From Philodulcilactobacillus myokonensis (lineage in GTDB: Bacteria; Bacillota; Bacilli; Lactobacillales; Lactobacillaceae), in contig NZ_BRPL01000002.1 of the NCBI RefSeq assembly GCF_027923585.1, positions 682,001-746,000 on the forward strand: a stretch of 64,000 nt of DNA. Reading direction: 5' to 3'. The translations under genes were made by a program, and so were the position numbers. Below, one piece after another: positions 29,680 to 54,076 of this stretch. The notes beneath the pieces are model-generated. The model searched no databases. It worked only from the letters and a program-made list of their open reading frames with translations, and had not been told where the DNA came from. How positions within the stretch are numbered: the first letter of the stretch is position 1; each line of letters begins with the position of its first letter.

Positions 29680-29700
29680 GTAGACATAGTTTAAATGATA

Positions 29701-29936
29701 TTGAAAGACATGGTTTATAATTTTTAATATTCAGGGAGAAAAAACATTTACTGGAAGTTTTTTATATTAAATTATGAATTACCACTTTCTTTATGTTCGG
29801 AGGAAAATTCCGGAACGGATGGTTACCGTTATCAACCAAATTGAGTATTCATTAGGCTTTTTGTCTATGGATTGAATTTGGGTGGAACCACGGTAATTGA
29901 CGTCCCTGACACATTATGTGTTGGGGACGTTTTTTA
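29701..29936 (+). promoter_or_regulatory. T-box riboswitch controlling thrS (specifier ACC)
   Basis: Stem I is closed by GAAAG (29703-29707) and CTTTC (29785-29789). One purine before the closing strand is ACC (29781-29783), a Thr codon in the specifier position. The T-box GGGTGGAACCACGG ends at 29893; its TGGA bulge predicts discriminator T, usual for Gram-positive tRNA-Thr. The terminator ACGTCCC/GGGACGT plus six Ts follows. The leader fills the gap between dnaI and thrS. Confidence 0.93.
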
Positions 29937-29976: not shown

Positions 29977-31929
29977 ATGACTCAACTTTCATTTGAATTT
30001 CCAGATGGTAAAGTTAAACAGTTTGATGCTGGTGTAGATATTAAATCGATTGCAAAATCAATTGCAATTAGTTTAGCTAAAAAAGCCGTTGCCGGTAAGG
30101 TTGACGGCCAAATGGTTGGTGTTAATACTCCTCTTAATAAGGGTGGTAAAGTTGAAGTAATTACTTCAGATTCTAAGGATGGTTTAAGTGTTCTTAGAAA
30201 TACTGCTGCTCAATTATTAAAGGCTGCCTTACATGATACTTATCATGATGATATTAAATTTGGTACTAATGGTGCCTATGACGATGGCTTTTATGTTGAT
30301 ACTGATAAAAAAGAAAATCAAGTTAGTGCCGATGAATTACAACCATTATCCGATAAAATGAATAAAATGATTAAACATAACGTTCCCTTGAAACGGGTTA
30401 TTTTATCTAAAGCAGATGCATTGAACCAAGTTGATGGTGATCCTTATCAAGCAAAATTAGTTAATAAATTTGCTTCTAATGATCAAGTTGCATTTTATCA
30501 AATCAATGATTATATGAGTTTAGCAAACGGTGTTGTTTTACCTTCTGCTGGATCAGTTAAGTACTTTAAATTATTGTCAGTTGCTGGTGCTTACTGGGAA
30601 GGTAAATCATCTAACCCAATGCTACAAAGAATTTATGCAACTGCCTTTGTTAAAAAGGTTGATTTAGATGCTGATGTTAAAAAGCGTCAAGAAGCTAGAG
30701 AACGTGACCACCGAGTTATTGGTAATAAGCTAGACTTATTCTTCGTTGATCCAAAAGTCGGGCAAGGTCTTCCTTACTGGATGCCAAATGGTGCTACTAT
30801 TCGTCGTGTGATTGAACGATACATTGTTGATAAGGAAGTTGCTGCTGGTTATGAACATGTATATACACCGGTATTAATGAATTTGAATGCTTATAAGACT
30901 TCTGGCCACTGGGCTCACTACCGAGATGATATGTTCCCACCAATGAAAATGAAAGATGGTGAAGAACTTGAATTACGTCCAATGAATTGCCCAAGTCATA
31001 TTCAAATCTATAACAGACATATTCGTTCATACCGTGAATTACCATTAAGAATTGCTGAATTAGGGATGATGCACAGATATGAAAAGGCCGGTGCACTTTC
31101 AGGTCTCCAACGTGTTCGTGAAATGACTTTAAATGATGGTCATACTTTTGTTGCCCCTGATCAAATTCAAGATGAATTTAAGCGCATTTTAAACTTAATG
31201 GTAGATGTTTACCATGATTTTGATATTAGTAATTATCACTTTAGATTGAGTTACCGTGATCCAAAGAACACCACTAAGTACTTCCAAAATGATGCTTTGT
31301 GGAATAAATCACAGAAAATGCTTAAGGGTGCCATGGACGACTTAGGTTTAGATTATGTTGAAGCTGAAGGTGAAGCAGCATTCTATGGTCCAAAATTAGA
31401 TGTCCAGACTTACACTGCTTTAGGTAACGAAGAAACATTATCTACCATTCAATTAGACTTTATGTTGCCAAAACGTTTTGATTTACATTATGTTGGTAAG
31501 GATGGTAAAGATCATCAACCAGTTATGATTCACCGTGGAATTGTTTCAACGATGGAACGTTTTGTTGCTTACTTAATTGAAATGTACAAGGGTGCTTTTC
31601 CAACTTGGTTAGCTCCAAAACAAGTAAAAATTATTCCAGTTAGTTTAGATAAACATGGTGATTATGCTAAGAAAATTAACGCCAAATTAAGAAAATTACA
31701 CATTCGTTCTGAAGTAGAAAACAGAAGTGAAAAGATGGGTTACTTAATTCGTGATGCTCAAACCCATAAGATTCCATACACATTAGTTGTTGGTGATGAT
31801 GAAATGAGTAATAATCAAGTTTCAGTCAGACAGTATGGACATAAGGATAGTAAGGATGAATCAATCGATGAATTTGTAAAGCAAATTCAAAAAGATATTC
31901 AAAGTTACTCAAGACATTACGGTGAATAA
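29977..31929 (+). CDS. thrS: Threonyl-tRNA synthetase with a degenerate editing site
   Basis: The class II synthetase (650 aa) has the TGS domain (1-62), the editing domain (about 63-225), the catalytic core and the anticodon domain (about 545-650). Zinc ligands are retained in MNCPSH, NDGH and MIHR, and motif 2 [16 protein letters not shown] is normal. The editing site is not: the usual HxxxH reads N75-TAA-Q79 and the CRGPH motif reads A183-NGV-V187, so all four key residues are lost while the fold's flanks ([11 protein letters not shown]) persist. Mischarged Ser-tRNA-Thr would probably not be cleared in cis. The ATG with aaaggagat is the start; earlier in-frame TTG codons lie inside the T-box. 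Confidence 0.96.
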
Positions 31930-31972: not shown

Positions 31973-32094
31973 GTAATAAAAGCAGAGGCTTCCCGCTTCT
32001 CGCCTAAGTGATTTTAATTGCTGGGCTTGATAAGAGATTAATTGTGACAATTTATCACAAATGATGGCGGGTGCATTCTGCATCCGCCATTTTT
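31973..32094 (+). promoter_or_regulatory. L20-type leader of the infC-rpmI-rplT operon with attenuator
   Basis: The leader carries AGAGGCTTCCCGCTTCTCG, typical of the Bacilli L20 leader in which ribosomal protein L20 binds its own mRNA and promotes premature termination. It ends in a strong terminator, ATGGCGGGTGCA/TGCATCCGCCAT with a T-run (32064-32094). A GTGA/TCAC hairpin precedes it. Confidence 0.85.
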
Positions 32095-32125
32095 CTGCTT
32101 CAAAAGATTTTGGAGGTGAATCGCT

Positions 32126-46546: not shown

Positions 46547-48961
46547 ATGAAAGTATCATATAATTGGTTAAAGGAATACTTAAACTTAAATGTTCCTGCT
46601 GATCAATTGGGTGAAAAAATCGAAAGAACAGCCGTTGAAGTTGACTCAGTTACTAAGCATCAAGATGGCCTTAAAAAATTAGTTGTTGGTAAAGTTGTCT
46701 CTTGTGAAAAACATCCCAATTCTGATCATTTACACGTTTGCCAAGTCGATGTTAATCAAGATGATTTACTACAAATCGTTTGTGGAGCACCTAATGTTGC
46801 AGCCGGTGAAAAGGTAATTGTTGCATTACCCGGATCAAGAATTGGTAACAACGTTAAAATTAAGCGTGCTAAAATGCGTGGAGTCAAATCAAATGGTATG
46901 CTATGTGGATTAGATGAAGTTGGTTTTGATCGTAGTGTGGTTCCTGAAAAATGGCTAAATGGAATTTATGTTTTTCCAGATGATGCCAAGGTTGGAAAAC
47001 CAATCTATCATTATCTAGGGATGGATGATGATTTGATTGATTTAGATGTAACTCCTAATCGAGGCGATATGCTAAGCATTTATGGGACTGTTCATGAATT
47101 AGCTGCCATTTATGATTTAAAACCGGATTTAAATCATCCAAAAGTTGAAGAAAATCCAAAATTAAATGCTTCGGATGATATTAGTGCAGATGTTGATAAG
47201 AAAATTGCGCCGATTTACAAACTTCGTGTTTTAAAGAATGTTAAAATTCAACCAAGTCCACTTTGGATGCAAATCAGGCTTTGGAATGCTGATATTAGGC
47301 CAGTTAACAATGTTGTTGATATTACTAATTATATTATGTTGAAGTATGGACAACCAATTCAGGTTTATGATTTGGATAAAATTAATAATCAAAAATTATT
47401 GGTCAGAAATGCCCGATTGAATGAAAAAGTTGAAACAACTGATGGTGATAAAGTAACGTTAACTGATGATGATATTGTAGTTGCAGATGATCAAAAACCA
47501 GTTGCGCTTGCTGGACTAACCGGTTTAAAAGGTGCTGAAGTTGATCAAAATACAAAGAATATTATTTTTGAAGCTGGTGTTTTCAGTTTCGTTAAGGTTA
47601 GAAAAATGGCCCAACGTCATTCAATTCATACTGGTTCATCCCAACGTTTTGAACGTGGTGTTAACCATGCAGGGGTTAATGAAGCTTTAGACGCAGCTTG
47701 TGAAATTGAGCATCGTTTTACAGATGCTGACATTGAGCAGGGAACTGTTACAGCTAGCGATATTGATGCTAAACCAGTTAATGTTGATATCACTTTAACC
47801 AGAATTAATCGAGTATTAGGGCTTAGCTTAACAATGCCTGAGGCTAGTAATATCTTTAAACGTTTAGGATTTGGTGTTGAAATTAATGATGATCAAATGT
47901 CTGTATCAATTCCGCCACGACGATGGGATATTCATATTGAAGCTGATTTATTTGAAGAAATTGCCAGAATTTATGGGTACGATAATATGCCTTCAACGTT
48001 ACCATCAGGCCCAACTACGATTGGCAAATTAACTAACAAACAAAAGTTAATAAGACGCTCTAGAAGAATTTTACAGGATTCTGGATTAACACATGCCATT
48101 TCATATTCATTAACCACCGCTAAAAAAGCTAATATGTTTATGATGAGAAAAAGCTATGAAACAAAACTTAAAATGCCAATGACAATTGATCGCTCGACGT
48201 TAAGAATGAATTTGTTAAGTGGATTATTGGATGATGTCGCATATAATCAGGCCAGAGGTGTTGATGATGTTGCTTTATATGAATTAGGGCGTGTTTTTTA
48301 TAAGGATGATGAAAAACAGGTTCGTCCTAATGAAGTTGAACACATTGCAGGAGTTATTTCTGGATCGTTAAGTATAGATACTTGGAATCATAAATCTAAA
48401 CCAGTTGATTTTTACCAGTTAAAGGGAATTGTTGATAATTATTTAGATGATTTAAATCTCAACGGTGACATTGATTATGAAGCAACTAGTGACTACCCAG
48501 AAATGCATCCTGGAAGAACTGCCAATATTTATATTCATGGTCATAAAATTGGTTTTATTGGCCAAATTCATCCGGTCATTGCTGATAAATTCAATATTAA
48601 ACCAACATATGCCTTTGAGTTAGACTTAAAGACGTTAATTGAAATGCCAAAACGGGAACAAACAGCTGATAGTGTTTCTAAATATCCTTCAATTAGCCGG
48701 GACATTGCAATATTAGTAGATAAAAATGTTACTAATAAAGAAATTGTTAGTGCCATTCAAAAACGTGGTGGTGCATTCTTGAATCAAGTTCATTTGTTTG
48801 ATCTATATGATGGTGCTCATATTCCTAGCGGCAAGAAATCAATGGCTTATACTTTAACTTATCAAGATCAGCATGATACTTTACAGAATGAAGTGGTTGA
48901 TAAGTCAATGAAGAAAATCCAAAGGGACTTAAAGCAACAATTTAATGTTACAATCCGTTAA
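46547..48961 (+). CDS. pheT: Phenylalanyl-tRNA synthetase beta subunit with altered editing pocket
   Basis: The 804-residue subunit has an N-terminal tRNA-binding OB fold (HPNSDHLHVCQVD), the B3/B4 editing domain (about 210-390), B5, the catalytic-like core and a C-terminal anticodon-binding fold (YPSISRDIAILVD). In the editing domain the usual GQPLHAFD reads GQPIQVYD, so the conserved His is Gln272; the usual GVMGG loop reads GLTGL (323-327); the TDAS-type motif reads TGSS. Hydrolysis of Tyr-tRNA-Phe may therefore be weakened. The Thr of the latter motif and the Glu in IIFEAGVF remain. Confidence 0.96.
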   Translation: MKVSYNWLKEYLNLNVPADQLGEKIERTAVEVDSVTKHQDGLKKLVVGKVVSCEKHPNSDHLHVCQVDVNQDDLLQIVCGAPNVAAGEKVIVALPGSRIGNNVKIKRAKMRGVKSNGMLCGLDEVGFDRSVVPEKWLNGIYVFPDDAKVGKPIYHYLGMDDDLIDLDVTPNRGDMLSIYGTVHELAAIYDLKPDLNHPKVEENPKLNASDDISADVDKKIAPIYKLRVLKNVKIQPSPLWMQIRLWNADIRPVNNVVDITNYIMLKYGQPIQVYDLDKINNQKLLVRNARLNEKVETTDGDKVTLTDDDIVVADDQKPVALAGLTGLKGAEVDQNTKNIIFEAGVFSFVKVRKMAQRHSIHTGSSQRFERGVNHAGVNEALDAACEIEHRFTDADIEQGTVTASDIDAKPVNVDITLTRINRVLGLSLTMPEASNIFKRLGFGVEINDDQMSVSIPPRRWDIHIEADLFEEIARIYGYDNMPSTLPSGPTTIGKLTNKQKLIRRSRRILQDSGLTHAISYSLTTAKKANMFMMRKSYETKLKMPMTIDRSTLRMNLLSGLLDDVAYNQARGVDDVALYELGRVFYKDDEKQVRPNEVEHIAGVISGSLSIDTWNHKSKPVDFYQLKGIVDNYLDDLNLNGDIDYEATSDYPEMHPGRTANIYIHGHKIGFIGQIHPVIADKFNIKPTYAFELDLKTLIEMPKREQTADSVSKYPSISRDIAILVDKNVTNKEIVSAIQKRGGAFLNQVHLFDLYDGAHIPSGKKSMAYTLTYQDQHDTLQNEVVDKSMKKIQRDLKQQFNVTIR

Positions 48962-51349: not shown

Positions 51350-51381
51350 AAAAGCTTAGGATATTATCCTAAGCTTTTTTA
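51350..51381. terminator. Bidirectional terminator between greA and the YfhO-family gene
   Basis: AAAAGCTTAGGAT pairs with ATCCTAAGCTTTT around a short loop, with A- and T-runs on each side. The stop codon of the convergent YfhO gene lies inside the stem. Confidence 0.9.
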
Positions 51382-53975
51382 TTATATTTTTTAATTTTGT
51401 TAATAACCATCATGAAAATAACTGTTAAAATTGAAATGCAAATTCCAAGCGTTAAATATGGTGGCCAGTAATAAAGTTTAATTGAATGTTTACCTGGGCT
51501 TAATTTACTACCGATGAACATATTTGACCATTTAGAGATTGAATGTGGTTTATTATCAACAATTAAATGCCAGCCTTTAGAATAAGGAATCGTTGTGATT
51601 AATGAATTCTTAGATTTGGTTGTTCGAATGGTTCCAATGAATTTACGATTACTATTATTATGAATTTTAAATTGATTTTGTTTTAAATTGCTAGTATCAT
51701 TTTGAAATAGTTTAGAATTAAAATGGTATAAAATGAAATTTTGTAAAAACATATTATCTTTTATTAATTTGAGATGAATGTGAATTGGTTTATTCTTATT
51801 ATTAGTTGCAACATTAATTATCGTTGTATTTTGATAATTAGCTGGTTTTATTATTTGAGATCCGTTAATACTTAATTTAATTGATTTATCATTGAATGCA
51901 TTTCCTAAGGTTAAGTAATATGGATCATTTGTTTTTGGAGTGAACGTAAGATTAATAATTGCGGGTTTAATTAAATTATTTTTACTGATCAATGCATTCG
52001 TTAAACGGGTCTGCTTATTTGTATTATTAAATGTGACTTGGTCAAAGTTTTTCGGATCAAAGAATCGCTGATTTTGATGATTGGTAAGGTAATTCATAAT
52101 ATTAGATTGGTAAACAGTTGGTAAATCATTTGAGTGGTGTTTTAGATTAAATATTTTAGAATTGGCAGCAAATCCAATTGGCAACCAGTGTGAATTTTTA
52201 AAAGTGATTGTTTGGTGATTTTCATTATAATAGCTGTACTGCTTGAAATCAGGACGGGGTGTAAAATTGCTTAAAACCGGATTACCATTATCTTTTAGGA
52301 AATATTTGAATGATAAAAGTGAATCTGATAATAATGTTCCATTTGAGTACTCAATATACCCTTCACCCGTGGGTTGGCCAATATTGTCCATGAATTGTGT
52401 TGACCGATAATTAATGGTTGATGAAAAATTATCACCGCCATTATAATTAGCATTTAGTGGGTCATCTTTACTTCTAAAAAATGTTTTACCAATTCGATAC
52501 CATTTATGATCGTGATTCTGGATTACTTTGGTATTGTCTTTTAAATTAGTTGTGTACTTCATATAACTATTGTTCGGAATGTATGAAATATTATTAAGCG
52601 AATTAAATGCATTAATTCCCATTTCAGCGATTATTATAATAATAAAAGCAACTTGAAATGTTTTAAATGATGAGGGAATAAACATGATTAAAATATAGCT
52701 TATTGTTAAAAAAATAATACTTGTAATTAAATTATTAATTGTCAAGAACGAAAATTGTTTTAAATTAAAACTCACGTATAAAACTGCTAAAATTAAAATT
52801 AATAGAATATTTAATTTGGTTTTCCAATTGTTAATCTGGAATTTTGGTGTGCTTTGGCTGGCAATGAAAATAATCCAAAAACAGAATATAAATGAAAATC
52901 GGTAGGGGTACCAAACTGGAAATTGCATGGCATGCCAAATTAAATCTAACGGCTCAAAACACATTGATAATAATAAAAAAACGGTGACAATGAAAATACT
53001 GATTTTTATTTTTAATTTAATTTCATGGTTAAAGAATAATGCTAAAAAATAAATGATGGGGATTGCCCCAATGAAAATATTGGGGGTTCCGCTTGGCATT
53101 TGATTAAAATTAAACGTGCCATTAAAAAATTTAGCAATCATTTTAATTGGAAGATATTCAAATTTAAGATTAACTGTATGAAGTGAATATTGGGCTTTTC
53201 CTTGTAATAGATCATAAAAAGTTGGAATCAATAACCATGCAGACAATCCTAAACTAATTAATGAACAGAATAAGAAATTTTTTATGTGATGAATCCAATC
53301 TTTCCATTTATGATTGTAAATTACATTTACAAAAACAAAATAAATTCCAACAAAAATAATTATCATATATGCAATATAATAATTAATGATGAGCATTGCT
53401 GTGAGTGAAATAATATATAATTTTATTTGCTGTTTAAAAAATAATTTGCGCATTCCCATAATAATAAGTGGTAAAAAAATCATTCCATCTAACCAAATGA
53501 TATTTAATTGATTAGCAATGATCCACCCATTTAATGCATAGATTGTTGCCCATGCAGGAATAAAAATTTTTTTAATTGATTTATTATCAAGTAGTAGTAT
53601 GCTAAAACACATACCGGATAAACCGTATTTAAGCAGGGTGATTAATAAGATGGCTGCATTAATGAATTTAGCTTTAAACAGCAATAATATGAGATTGAGC
53701 GGGCTCATAAGATAATAAGCCCAATTACCGATCATTCCACCACCCAATCCATTTGAAAATGAATATATGATGCTACTGGGATGATTTAAAATTGCATTTC
53801 GGTAGTATGAAAATAAATCAATATATTGTTGTCCCAGGTCAACTGTTGAAATACTGTTATTTCCAAATGGAAACATATTGCGATATGCAAAATAACATGC
53901 CATAATAACAAATGGTATTATAAAACTAAGCAATATGGGCCAATATTTTTTAATGCTTTTTTTAATTCTATTCAT
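51369..53975 (-). CDS. YfhO-family polytopic membrane protein (GT-C-like)
   Basis: The 868-residue protein has about a dozen membrane helices in the first 480 residues, the signature NGLGGGMIGNWAYYLMSPLNLI, then a large extracytoplasmic beta-rich domain (about 490-830) and a last C-terminal helix. The YfhO family resembles GT-C glycosyltransferases; a Listeria member glycosylates lipoteichoic acid. The start ATG 53975 follows aaggcg by 9 nt; a longer N-terminus from 54017 is possible but lacks an RBS. It is divergent from a class B PBP gene, in an envelope-related setting. Confidence 0.88.
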   Translation of the reverse strand: MNRIKKSIKKYWPILLSFIIPFVIMACYFAYRNMFPFGNNSISTVDLGQQYIDLFSYYRNAILNHPSSIIYSFSNGLGGGMIGNWAYYLMSPLNLILLLFKAKFINAAILLITLLKYGLSGMCFSILLLDNKSIKKIFIPAWATIYALNGWIIANQLNIIWLDGMIFLPLIIMGMRKLFFKQQIKLYIISLTAMLIINYYIAYMIIIFVGIYFVFVNVIYNHKWKDWIHHIKNFLFCSLISLGLSAWLLIPTFYDLLQGKAQYSLHTVNLKFEYLPIKMIAKFFNGTFNFNQMPSGTPNIFIGAIPIIYFLALFFNHEIKLKIKISIFIVTVFLLLSMCFEPLDLIWHAMQFPVWYPYRFSFIFCFWIIFIASQSTPKFQINNWKTKLNILLILILAVLYVSFNLKQFSFLTINNLITSIIFLTISYILIMFIPSSFKTFQVAFIIIIIAEMGINAFNSLNNISYIPNNSYMKYTTNLKDNTKVIQNHDHKWYRIGKTFFRSKDDPLNANYNGGDNFSSTINYRSTQFMDNIGQPTGEGYIEYSNGTLLSDSLLSFKYFLKDNGNPVLSNFTPRPDFKQYSYYNENHQTITFKNSHWLPIGFAANSKIFNLKHHSNDLPTVYQSNIMNYLTNHQNQRFFDPKNFDQVTFNNTNKQTRLTNALISKNNLIKPAIINLTFTPKTNDPYYLTLGNAFNDKSIKLSINGSQIIKPANYQNTTIINVATNNKNKPIHIHLKLIKDNMFLQNFILYHFNSKLFQNDTSNLKQNQFKIHNNSNRKFIGTIRTTKSKNSLITTIPYSKGWHLIVDNKPHSISKWSNMFIGSKLSPGKHSIKLYYWPPYLTLGICISILTVIFMMVINKIKKYNKKA

Positions 53976-54076
53976 AATGATTTTCGCCTTCATACCGTAA
54001 ATTAATATTATTTTCATGTTACCATAAATATAATAAATATAAATATAATGTAAATTATTAAGGAGCTTTAATTACT

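Follow-up and report, generated by a model that had tools for sequence, protein, structure and literature searches.

The threonyl-tRNA synthetase (ThrRS) of Philodulcilactobacillus myokonensis has lost the four catalytic residues of its N2 editing domain, and this loss is spread over the Lactobacillaceae and accompanied by relaxed constraint on the domain. The explanation that we favour, and consider quite probable, is that charging is intact, editing in cis is dead and N2 is kept as a scaffold, the loss being ancestral to large parts of the family.

The editing-site residues of ThrRS are erased

The stretch of DNA analysed here (the window; 64,000 nt, positions 682,001 to 746,000 of contig NZ_BRPL01000002.1) carries a thrS gene whose product scores 652.1 bits against the TIGR00418 profile (cut-off 383.65), as a bacterial ThrRS does. 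The domain order TGS (N1), N2, catalytic and anticodon-binding is present, and the phmmer alignment with the S. aureus enzyme (1nyq) spans residues 1-641. Alignment with E. coli K-12 ThrRS (from NC_000913) puts N75 (30199-30201) and Q79 (30211-30213) at the places of H73 and H77, and A183 (30523-30525) and V187 (30535-30537) at those of C182 and H186; in the phmmer alignment, HSTAH and CRGVH of 1nyq stand opposite the same replaced residues. These are exactly the replacements named in the original prediction, whose interval 30181-30543 spans both motifs, and its further statements, that the editing domain is still there and that the synthetic site is intact, are borne out by an N2 that aligns and is folded in an AlphaFold2 model and by retention of C338, H389 and H519. 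The window ThrRS has neither the HxxxH nor the C-x3-H of editing-competent bacterial ThrRS, and its gene is a natural, otherwise intact one with erased editing-site residues, as in an editing-deficient synthetase. Other N2 residues that differ from E. coli are S181 (for D180), N184 (R183), Q158 (K156, which we take to be an editing-pocket residue), E208 (R207) and N98-G99 (G95-P96). In the features below and throughout, intact rows have all four catalytic residues (HHCH), HHDL rows keep HxxxH and carry C182D/H186L, and site-less rows keep at most one of the four.

29692..29910, + strand: candidate T-box leader preceding thrS (59.8 bits to RF00230 in cmscan, E 1.1e-12, under the curated 93 bits)
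29977..31929, + strand: thrS, threonyl-tRNA synthetase, 650 aa (ATG at 29977, stop at 31929)
30169..30651, + strand: N2 (editing) domain, E. coli residues 63-224, site lost, modelled fold retained (alignment, AlphaFold2 model, structural matches)
30199..30213, + strand: former HxxxH, now NTAAQ (N75, Q79; alignment)
30448..30450, + strand: former K156, now Q158 (K in 36/36 intact rows and 31% of 52 site-less rows)
30523..30537, + strand: former C-x3-H (CRGPH), now ANGVV (A183, V187; alignment)
30565..30651, + strand: conserved N2 end, E. coli 196-224 (mean identity 0.86-0.87 in two site-less clades vs 0.88 in the intact outgroup)
30598..30600, + strand: former R207, now E208 (R in 36/36 intact, 8/8 HHDL and 0/52 site-less rows)
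30988..30990, + strand: synthetic-site Zn ligand C338 (E. coli C334), intact (alignment)
31141..31143, + strand: synthetic-site Zn ligand H389 (E. coli H385), intact (alignment)
31531..31533, + strand: synthetic-site Zn ligand H519 (E. coli H511), intact (alignment)
31974-32101: L20 leader

Profile searches place polA (22661) and dnaB (27298) near thrS; nrdR, dnaI, infC and rplT are presumably further neighbours.

N2 keeps its modelled fold, with no sign of relocated metal ligands

The AlphaFold2 model of residues 1-241, made with a 52-row alignment, has a pLDDT of 95.9 and a pTM of 0.92. Its best structural matches are the ThrRS structures 6vu9, 1nyq and 1qf6 (Z 29.4-29.6), with 236 residues of E. 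coli ThrRS (1qf6) superposed at Z 29.4 and rmsd 2.4. The next matches are mitoribosomal chains (Z 20.2-22.6), followed by AlaRS/AlaX. The best match outside ThrRS, chain 7 of the human mitoribosome, which we take to be mL39, likewise has the TGS and N2 fold outside proofreading, but it belongs to the ribosome and carries no synthetase part. Compared with active bacterial ThrRS (E. coli, S. aureus; 1qf6, 1nyq, 1tje), the window enzyme is alike in domain order, fold, zinc site and N2 end, but lacks HxxxH, C-x3-H, K156 and R207.

A shift of the ligands to elsewhere in the domain, raised with the original prediction as the finding that would speak against it, has no support: among the 52 site-less rows, no N2 column has His or Cys in 40% or more, and we therefore consider that the ligands have not been relocated within N2. 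A new metal site at HDTYH, a few residues on in the window, was dismissed, because this motif is private to the window among the 52 site-less rows. At the same time, some N2 residues have become newly uniform in the site-less rows, namely T74 (47/52, between the former histidines), Q111 (51/52) and K194 (51/52), and the replacement set of one site-less clade (clade A, see below) is fairly uniform, with F or L at position 77 in 19/19 and G at position 182 in 15/19. This uniformity suggests that N2 may face a new constraint rather than mere drift. Together with the presence of N2 in every row and the intact modelled fold, it could even point to an N2 that still edits, through a rebuilt site; we regard this as very improbable, given the missing conserved His or Cys, the private HDTYH and the fast divergence of the pocket part of the domain (see below).

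N2 was found in every row, and TGS is lost in two site-less sister genera, g3 and g6. At these loci (L175 in G002 of g3 and L181 in G005 of g6) a short remnant stands instead of TGS, the ThrRS frames are 600 and 618 residues long, and neither dnaI nor infC was seen near thrS.

Loss of the site is common to most Lactobacillaceae examined

The original prediction had presented the loss as the trait of a single species; it is real in the window, but it is common to most Lactobacillaceae examined. None of 80 named Lactobacillaceae loci is intact, 76 keeping none of the four catalytic residues and four keeping one; the set (Apilactobacillus, Lentilactobacillus, Levilactobacillus, Lactiplantibacillus, Pediococcus, Ligilactobacillus, Companilactobacillus and others) comprises the 80 nearest among at least 591 confirmed relatives and is therefore tilted to site-less genera near the window. 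A second set of 42 rows from 40 Lactobacillaceae genera (window included; one genome per genus, except g14 and g17 with two each) contains 30 rows with none of the four residues, three with one, eight with two (HHDL) and one with all four (genus g20). Counted by genus (n=40), one is intact, seven combine HxxxH with C182D/H186L, and the other 32 have one residue of the four or none. Two extra g20 genomes are likewise intact (LRHSAAHLL and DLCRGGH). The outgroup, 36 ThrRS rows from 35 genomes in eight further Lactobacillales families, is HHCH throughout, and the synthetic-site zinc ligands are CHH in every named-locus, 40-genus and outgroup row. A single long ThrRS match per genome was found in the P. 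myokonensis genome and in 39 other Lactobacillaceae genomes. In family f8, one genome (G611, 5% contamination) carries on contig C43 a second intact ThrRS (L198), 39% identical, which is either a paralogue or a stray contig.

A survey with the pattern D-x-C-[R/S]-G-P-H on DNA, which matched 2 of 397 Lactobacillaceae and 78 of 295 Lactobacillales genomes, was discarded as a measure because the intact forms CRGVH, CRGIH and CRGGH escape it; both Lactobacillaceae matches sit in frames of 40 and 12 residues outside ThrRS.

Constraint on the editing domain is relaxed where the site is lost

At comparable identity of the catalytic domain (0.85 in site-less, 0.84 in intact and 0.86 in HHDL rows), mean N2 identity is 0.47, 0.72 and 0.76, respectively, and the median ratio of ln(identity) between N2 and catalytic domain is 4.83, 1.93 and 1.85. 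Relative to the catalytic domain, N2 thus diverges about 2.5 times faster in site-less rows, with no acceleration in the C182D/H186L clade. These counts come from a 97-row set that uses 19 of the 80 named loci, and are made without pairs above 98.5% catalytic identity and without the second G611 ThrRS. The drift is confined to residues 63-195 (identity 0.41-0.43 vs 0.69 in the outgroup); residues 196-224 are spared (0.86-0.87 vs 0.88).

As a group, the four catalytic positions have been lost more often than expected by chance. Of the N2 positions, 51 do not vary among 35 intact outgroup rows; their median retention in the 52 site-less rows is 54%, compared with a mean of 2.4% for the four catalytic positions (permutation p=0.0004), although position 73 taken alone is only ninth in the ranking. 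Positions 77, 96, 182, 183, 186 and 207 are kept by none of the 52 rows. For 154 outgroup-invariant positions of the catalytic domain, mean retention in the same rows is 95%.

An old loss, probably with more than one origin

Alignment with other Lactobacillaceae ThrRS had been proposed with the original prediction as a way to date the loss. We find that the loss goes far back and probably had more than one origin. All trees come from quick IQ-TREE searches. In a ThrRS tree built without the editing domain and without the second G611 ThrRS, the Lactobacillaceae form one group (support 98), in which the 52 site-less rows are one clade (94) with HHDL+g20 (95) beside it. PolA (support 89-91), AlaRS (97) and their concatenation (99) instead place HHDL+g20 inside the site-less genomes. 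The concatenation, from which G009 (long branch) and G007 (broken AlaRS frame) were left out, rejects a single clade of site-less genomes (lnL -43, p-AU 0.0027; 34/48 rows, LG+G4) in a test whose group was defined only after the trees had been seen. This rejection implies at least two losses under vertical inheritance, or one loss and a re-gain. The residues at position 77, F or L throughout clade A and Q in 21 of the 33 rows of clade B, agree with at least two losses. We conclude that loss of the editing site was probably ancestral to large parts of the Lactobacillaceae and, if thrS was inherited vertically, probably occurred at least twice.

The ThrRS tree, with its single site-less clade next to HHDL+g20, would also fit one basal loss in the Lactobacillaceae, after which the ancestor of HHDL+g20 had its thrS replaced by an intact one. 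The surroundings of the gene keep this course of events in play: dnaI and/or infC (by homology to the window) lie near thrS at 27 of 30 site-less loci (20 with both) and at several outgroup loci of families f2 and f7, but neither was found within 1.5 kb of thrS at the two HHDL+g20 loci tested (L124 and L178). We nevertheless think it rather unlikely, as a species-like arrangement gives the ThrRS data a slightly higher likelihood (lnL +2.96, p-AU 0.536), HHDL+g20 is not nested within a sampled donor family, and the two site-less clades differ in their substituted residues.

Charging without editing in cis, and possible compensation

Under the reading that we favour, tRNA-Thr would be charged at the intact zinc site, and hydrolysis of Ser-tRNA-Thr in cis would be absent because N2 is without the known catalytic residues; judging from its sequence, the window ThrRS has very likely lost this activity. 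N2 would be retained as a scaffold for docking of the tRNA acceptor arm, a role known from the E. coli complex, and for cohesion of the enzyme, which would let the pocket drift while fold and last strands are conserved. The newly uniform N2 residues, with their hint of a new constraint, weigh against this reading, as does the lack of a scar at threonine columns: in PolA and AlaRS, we saw no avoidance of threonine in 38 columns (Thr in at least 7/8 outgroup rows), where site-less genomes retain Thr at 95.5%, more than for any other of the 16 residue kinds counted, although this is a weak proxy. A standalone YbaK-type deacylase could, moreover, clear some Ser-tRNA. That Ser-tRNA-Thr reaches the ribosome at some level is plausible, if somewhat short of an even chance.

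The original prediction had suggested a second thrS or a free-standing ThrRS editing domain as compensation. Neither turned up in the P. myokonensis genome (99.7% complete), which has one long ThrRS match and in which PF07973 (SAD) matches only AlaRS and ThrRS; short free-standing SAD frames occur in at least 4 of 101 Lactobacillaceae genomes, this one not among them. Clearance in trans by a general deacylase, such as one of the YbaK/ProXp (INS) family, is an unlikely substitute on the present evidence. ProXp-ST members do remove Ser and Thr from a number of different tRNAs, and in this genome PF04073 matches a single standalone protein of 167 aa, in addition to a 572-residue frame that we take for ProRS; but by profile the 167-aa protein falls in YbaK_EbsC, a family of Cys-tRNA(Pro) deacylases (155.9 bits, cut-off 153.25), it also matches ybaK in the PDB, and the distribution of such proteins is unlinked to the loss, with one to three copies in 7/8 intact outgroup genomes, at least one in 10/10 HHDL/g20 genomes and one (28) or two (4) in 32/32 site-less genomes. 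The PF07973 and PF04073 searches thus gave no trans-editor candidate tied to loss of the ThrRS site.

Serine might instead be rejected at the synthetic site, or by pre-transfer hydrolysis there, making N2 editing dispensable. Two substitutions follow the loss, 488 L to M (45/52 site-less rows, L in 8/8 HHDL), at a position that we believe to be near the synthetic pocket, and 267 L to M (49/52, L in 7/8 HHDL). However, of 28 listed synthetic-pocket or near-pocket positions, 21 (zinc ligands included) have the same single residue in 36 intact and 52 site-less rows, and 336S and 509M, being common to the HHDL clade as well (8/8 and 7/8), mark descent. There is precedent in some ProRS and mitochondrial PheRS that lost editing and gained specificity (PMC11415595), and even so a selective synthetic site seems improbable here. 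Taken together, the compensation searches and the threonine columns reveal no clear compensation and no visible scar in the proteome.

Cysteine-to-aspartate replacements in the HHDL clade

The HHDL form, mostly with ELD[KR]GGLVPST, is found in seven genera (L124, L182, L184-L188 and L190), which we assume to be Leuconostoc/Weissella/Oenococcus/Fructobacillus-like; g20, from its place in the tree, is presumably Periweissella. The N2 of the HHDL form evolves at the rate of intact enzymes, and HHDL ThrRS possibly has a working but altered editing site. A bolder reading, which we find doubtful, is that most Lactobacillaceae, after at least two independent losses, leave Ser-tRNA-Thr uncleared and live with a standing fraction of serine at Thr codons, and that the HHDL site, under normal constraint, was rebuilt around D182 with HxxxH and made oxidation-proof or re-specified.

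The editing cysteine of AlaRS (presumably C666 of E. coli) is replaced by Asp in 14 of 43 Lactobacillaceae rows and in none of 8 outgroup rows. Carriers are all six HHDL genomes tested and all five g20 genomes (L262, L267, L276, L278, L279, L289, L298, L300, L301, L305 and L306) and three other genera (L271, L293 and L297). A Cys-to-Asp swap thus recurs in two synthetases, ThrRS and AlaRS, of one clade. The three AlaRS histidines are retained in 51/51 rows, and the AlaRS of P. myokonensis itself has HTATH and CGGTH.

Relation to known cases of editing loss

Lactobacillaceae include many free-living and food bacteria, and so fit poorly with editing loss known mainly from host-restricted organisms. 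Natural loss has been described in Mycoplasma and other host-restricted organisms (PMC7373986, PMC11415595, PMC10057733). Degenerate editing-domain residues are common to those synthetases and the one studied here, but here the loss covers most of one family, with genomes of 1.2-3.3 Mb (40 genera), and affects chiefly one synthetase. The yeast mitochondrial ThrRS, which we take to be MST1, also functions without N2 editing. Its whole editing domain is absent (PMC4267643), whereas the domain is kept here.

The family offers a natural comparison between one intact genus, the seven genera with C182D/H186L and the two site-less clades. In bacteria that are safe and easy to culture, it can be tested directly if the cell puts up with serine in place of threonine, prevents it by stricter selection or removes it through some further factor. 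If the bolder reading above is right, serine would stand at Thr codons in bacteria that are among the most common in food and gut. To our knowledge, the most relevant earlier papers are Li 2011 and Melnikov 2018 (both PNAS). Among the papers listed in literature searches, judged by title and start of abstract, none deals with a lost ThrRS editing site in lactobacilli, bacteria that the Melnikov 2018 survey may have scored; what seems new is the breadth of the loss in Lactobacillaceae, its probable repetition and the HHDL clade.

Peroxide as a driver of site loss is only an idea, and the ThrRS of genus g43 (family f4), probably Streptococcus, counts against it by retaining C182. The idea draws on the oxidation of ThrRS C182 by H2O2 (PMC4041444), which makes peroxide-producing lactic acid bacteria a plausible setting for the loss.

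Other observations in the window

An 882-aa protein (51369-54017, - strand) matches PgfM1 and PgfM2 (streptococcal glycosyltransferases) far below cut-off (438.7 of 1400 and 413.3 of 1500 bits). In PheT (46547-48961), the His of GQP[MLI]H, which we take to correspond to the E. coli editing residue H265, is replaced by Gln (GQPIQ), as it also is in G003; E334, T354 and G318 are retained. This His is kept in 7 of 9 Lactobacillaceae rows, PheT having been matched in 8 of 20 sequence stretches. GQPIQ is a possible second eroded editing site in this genome.
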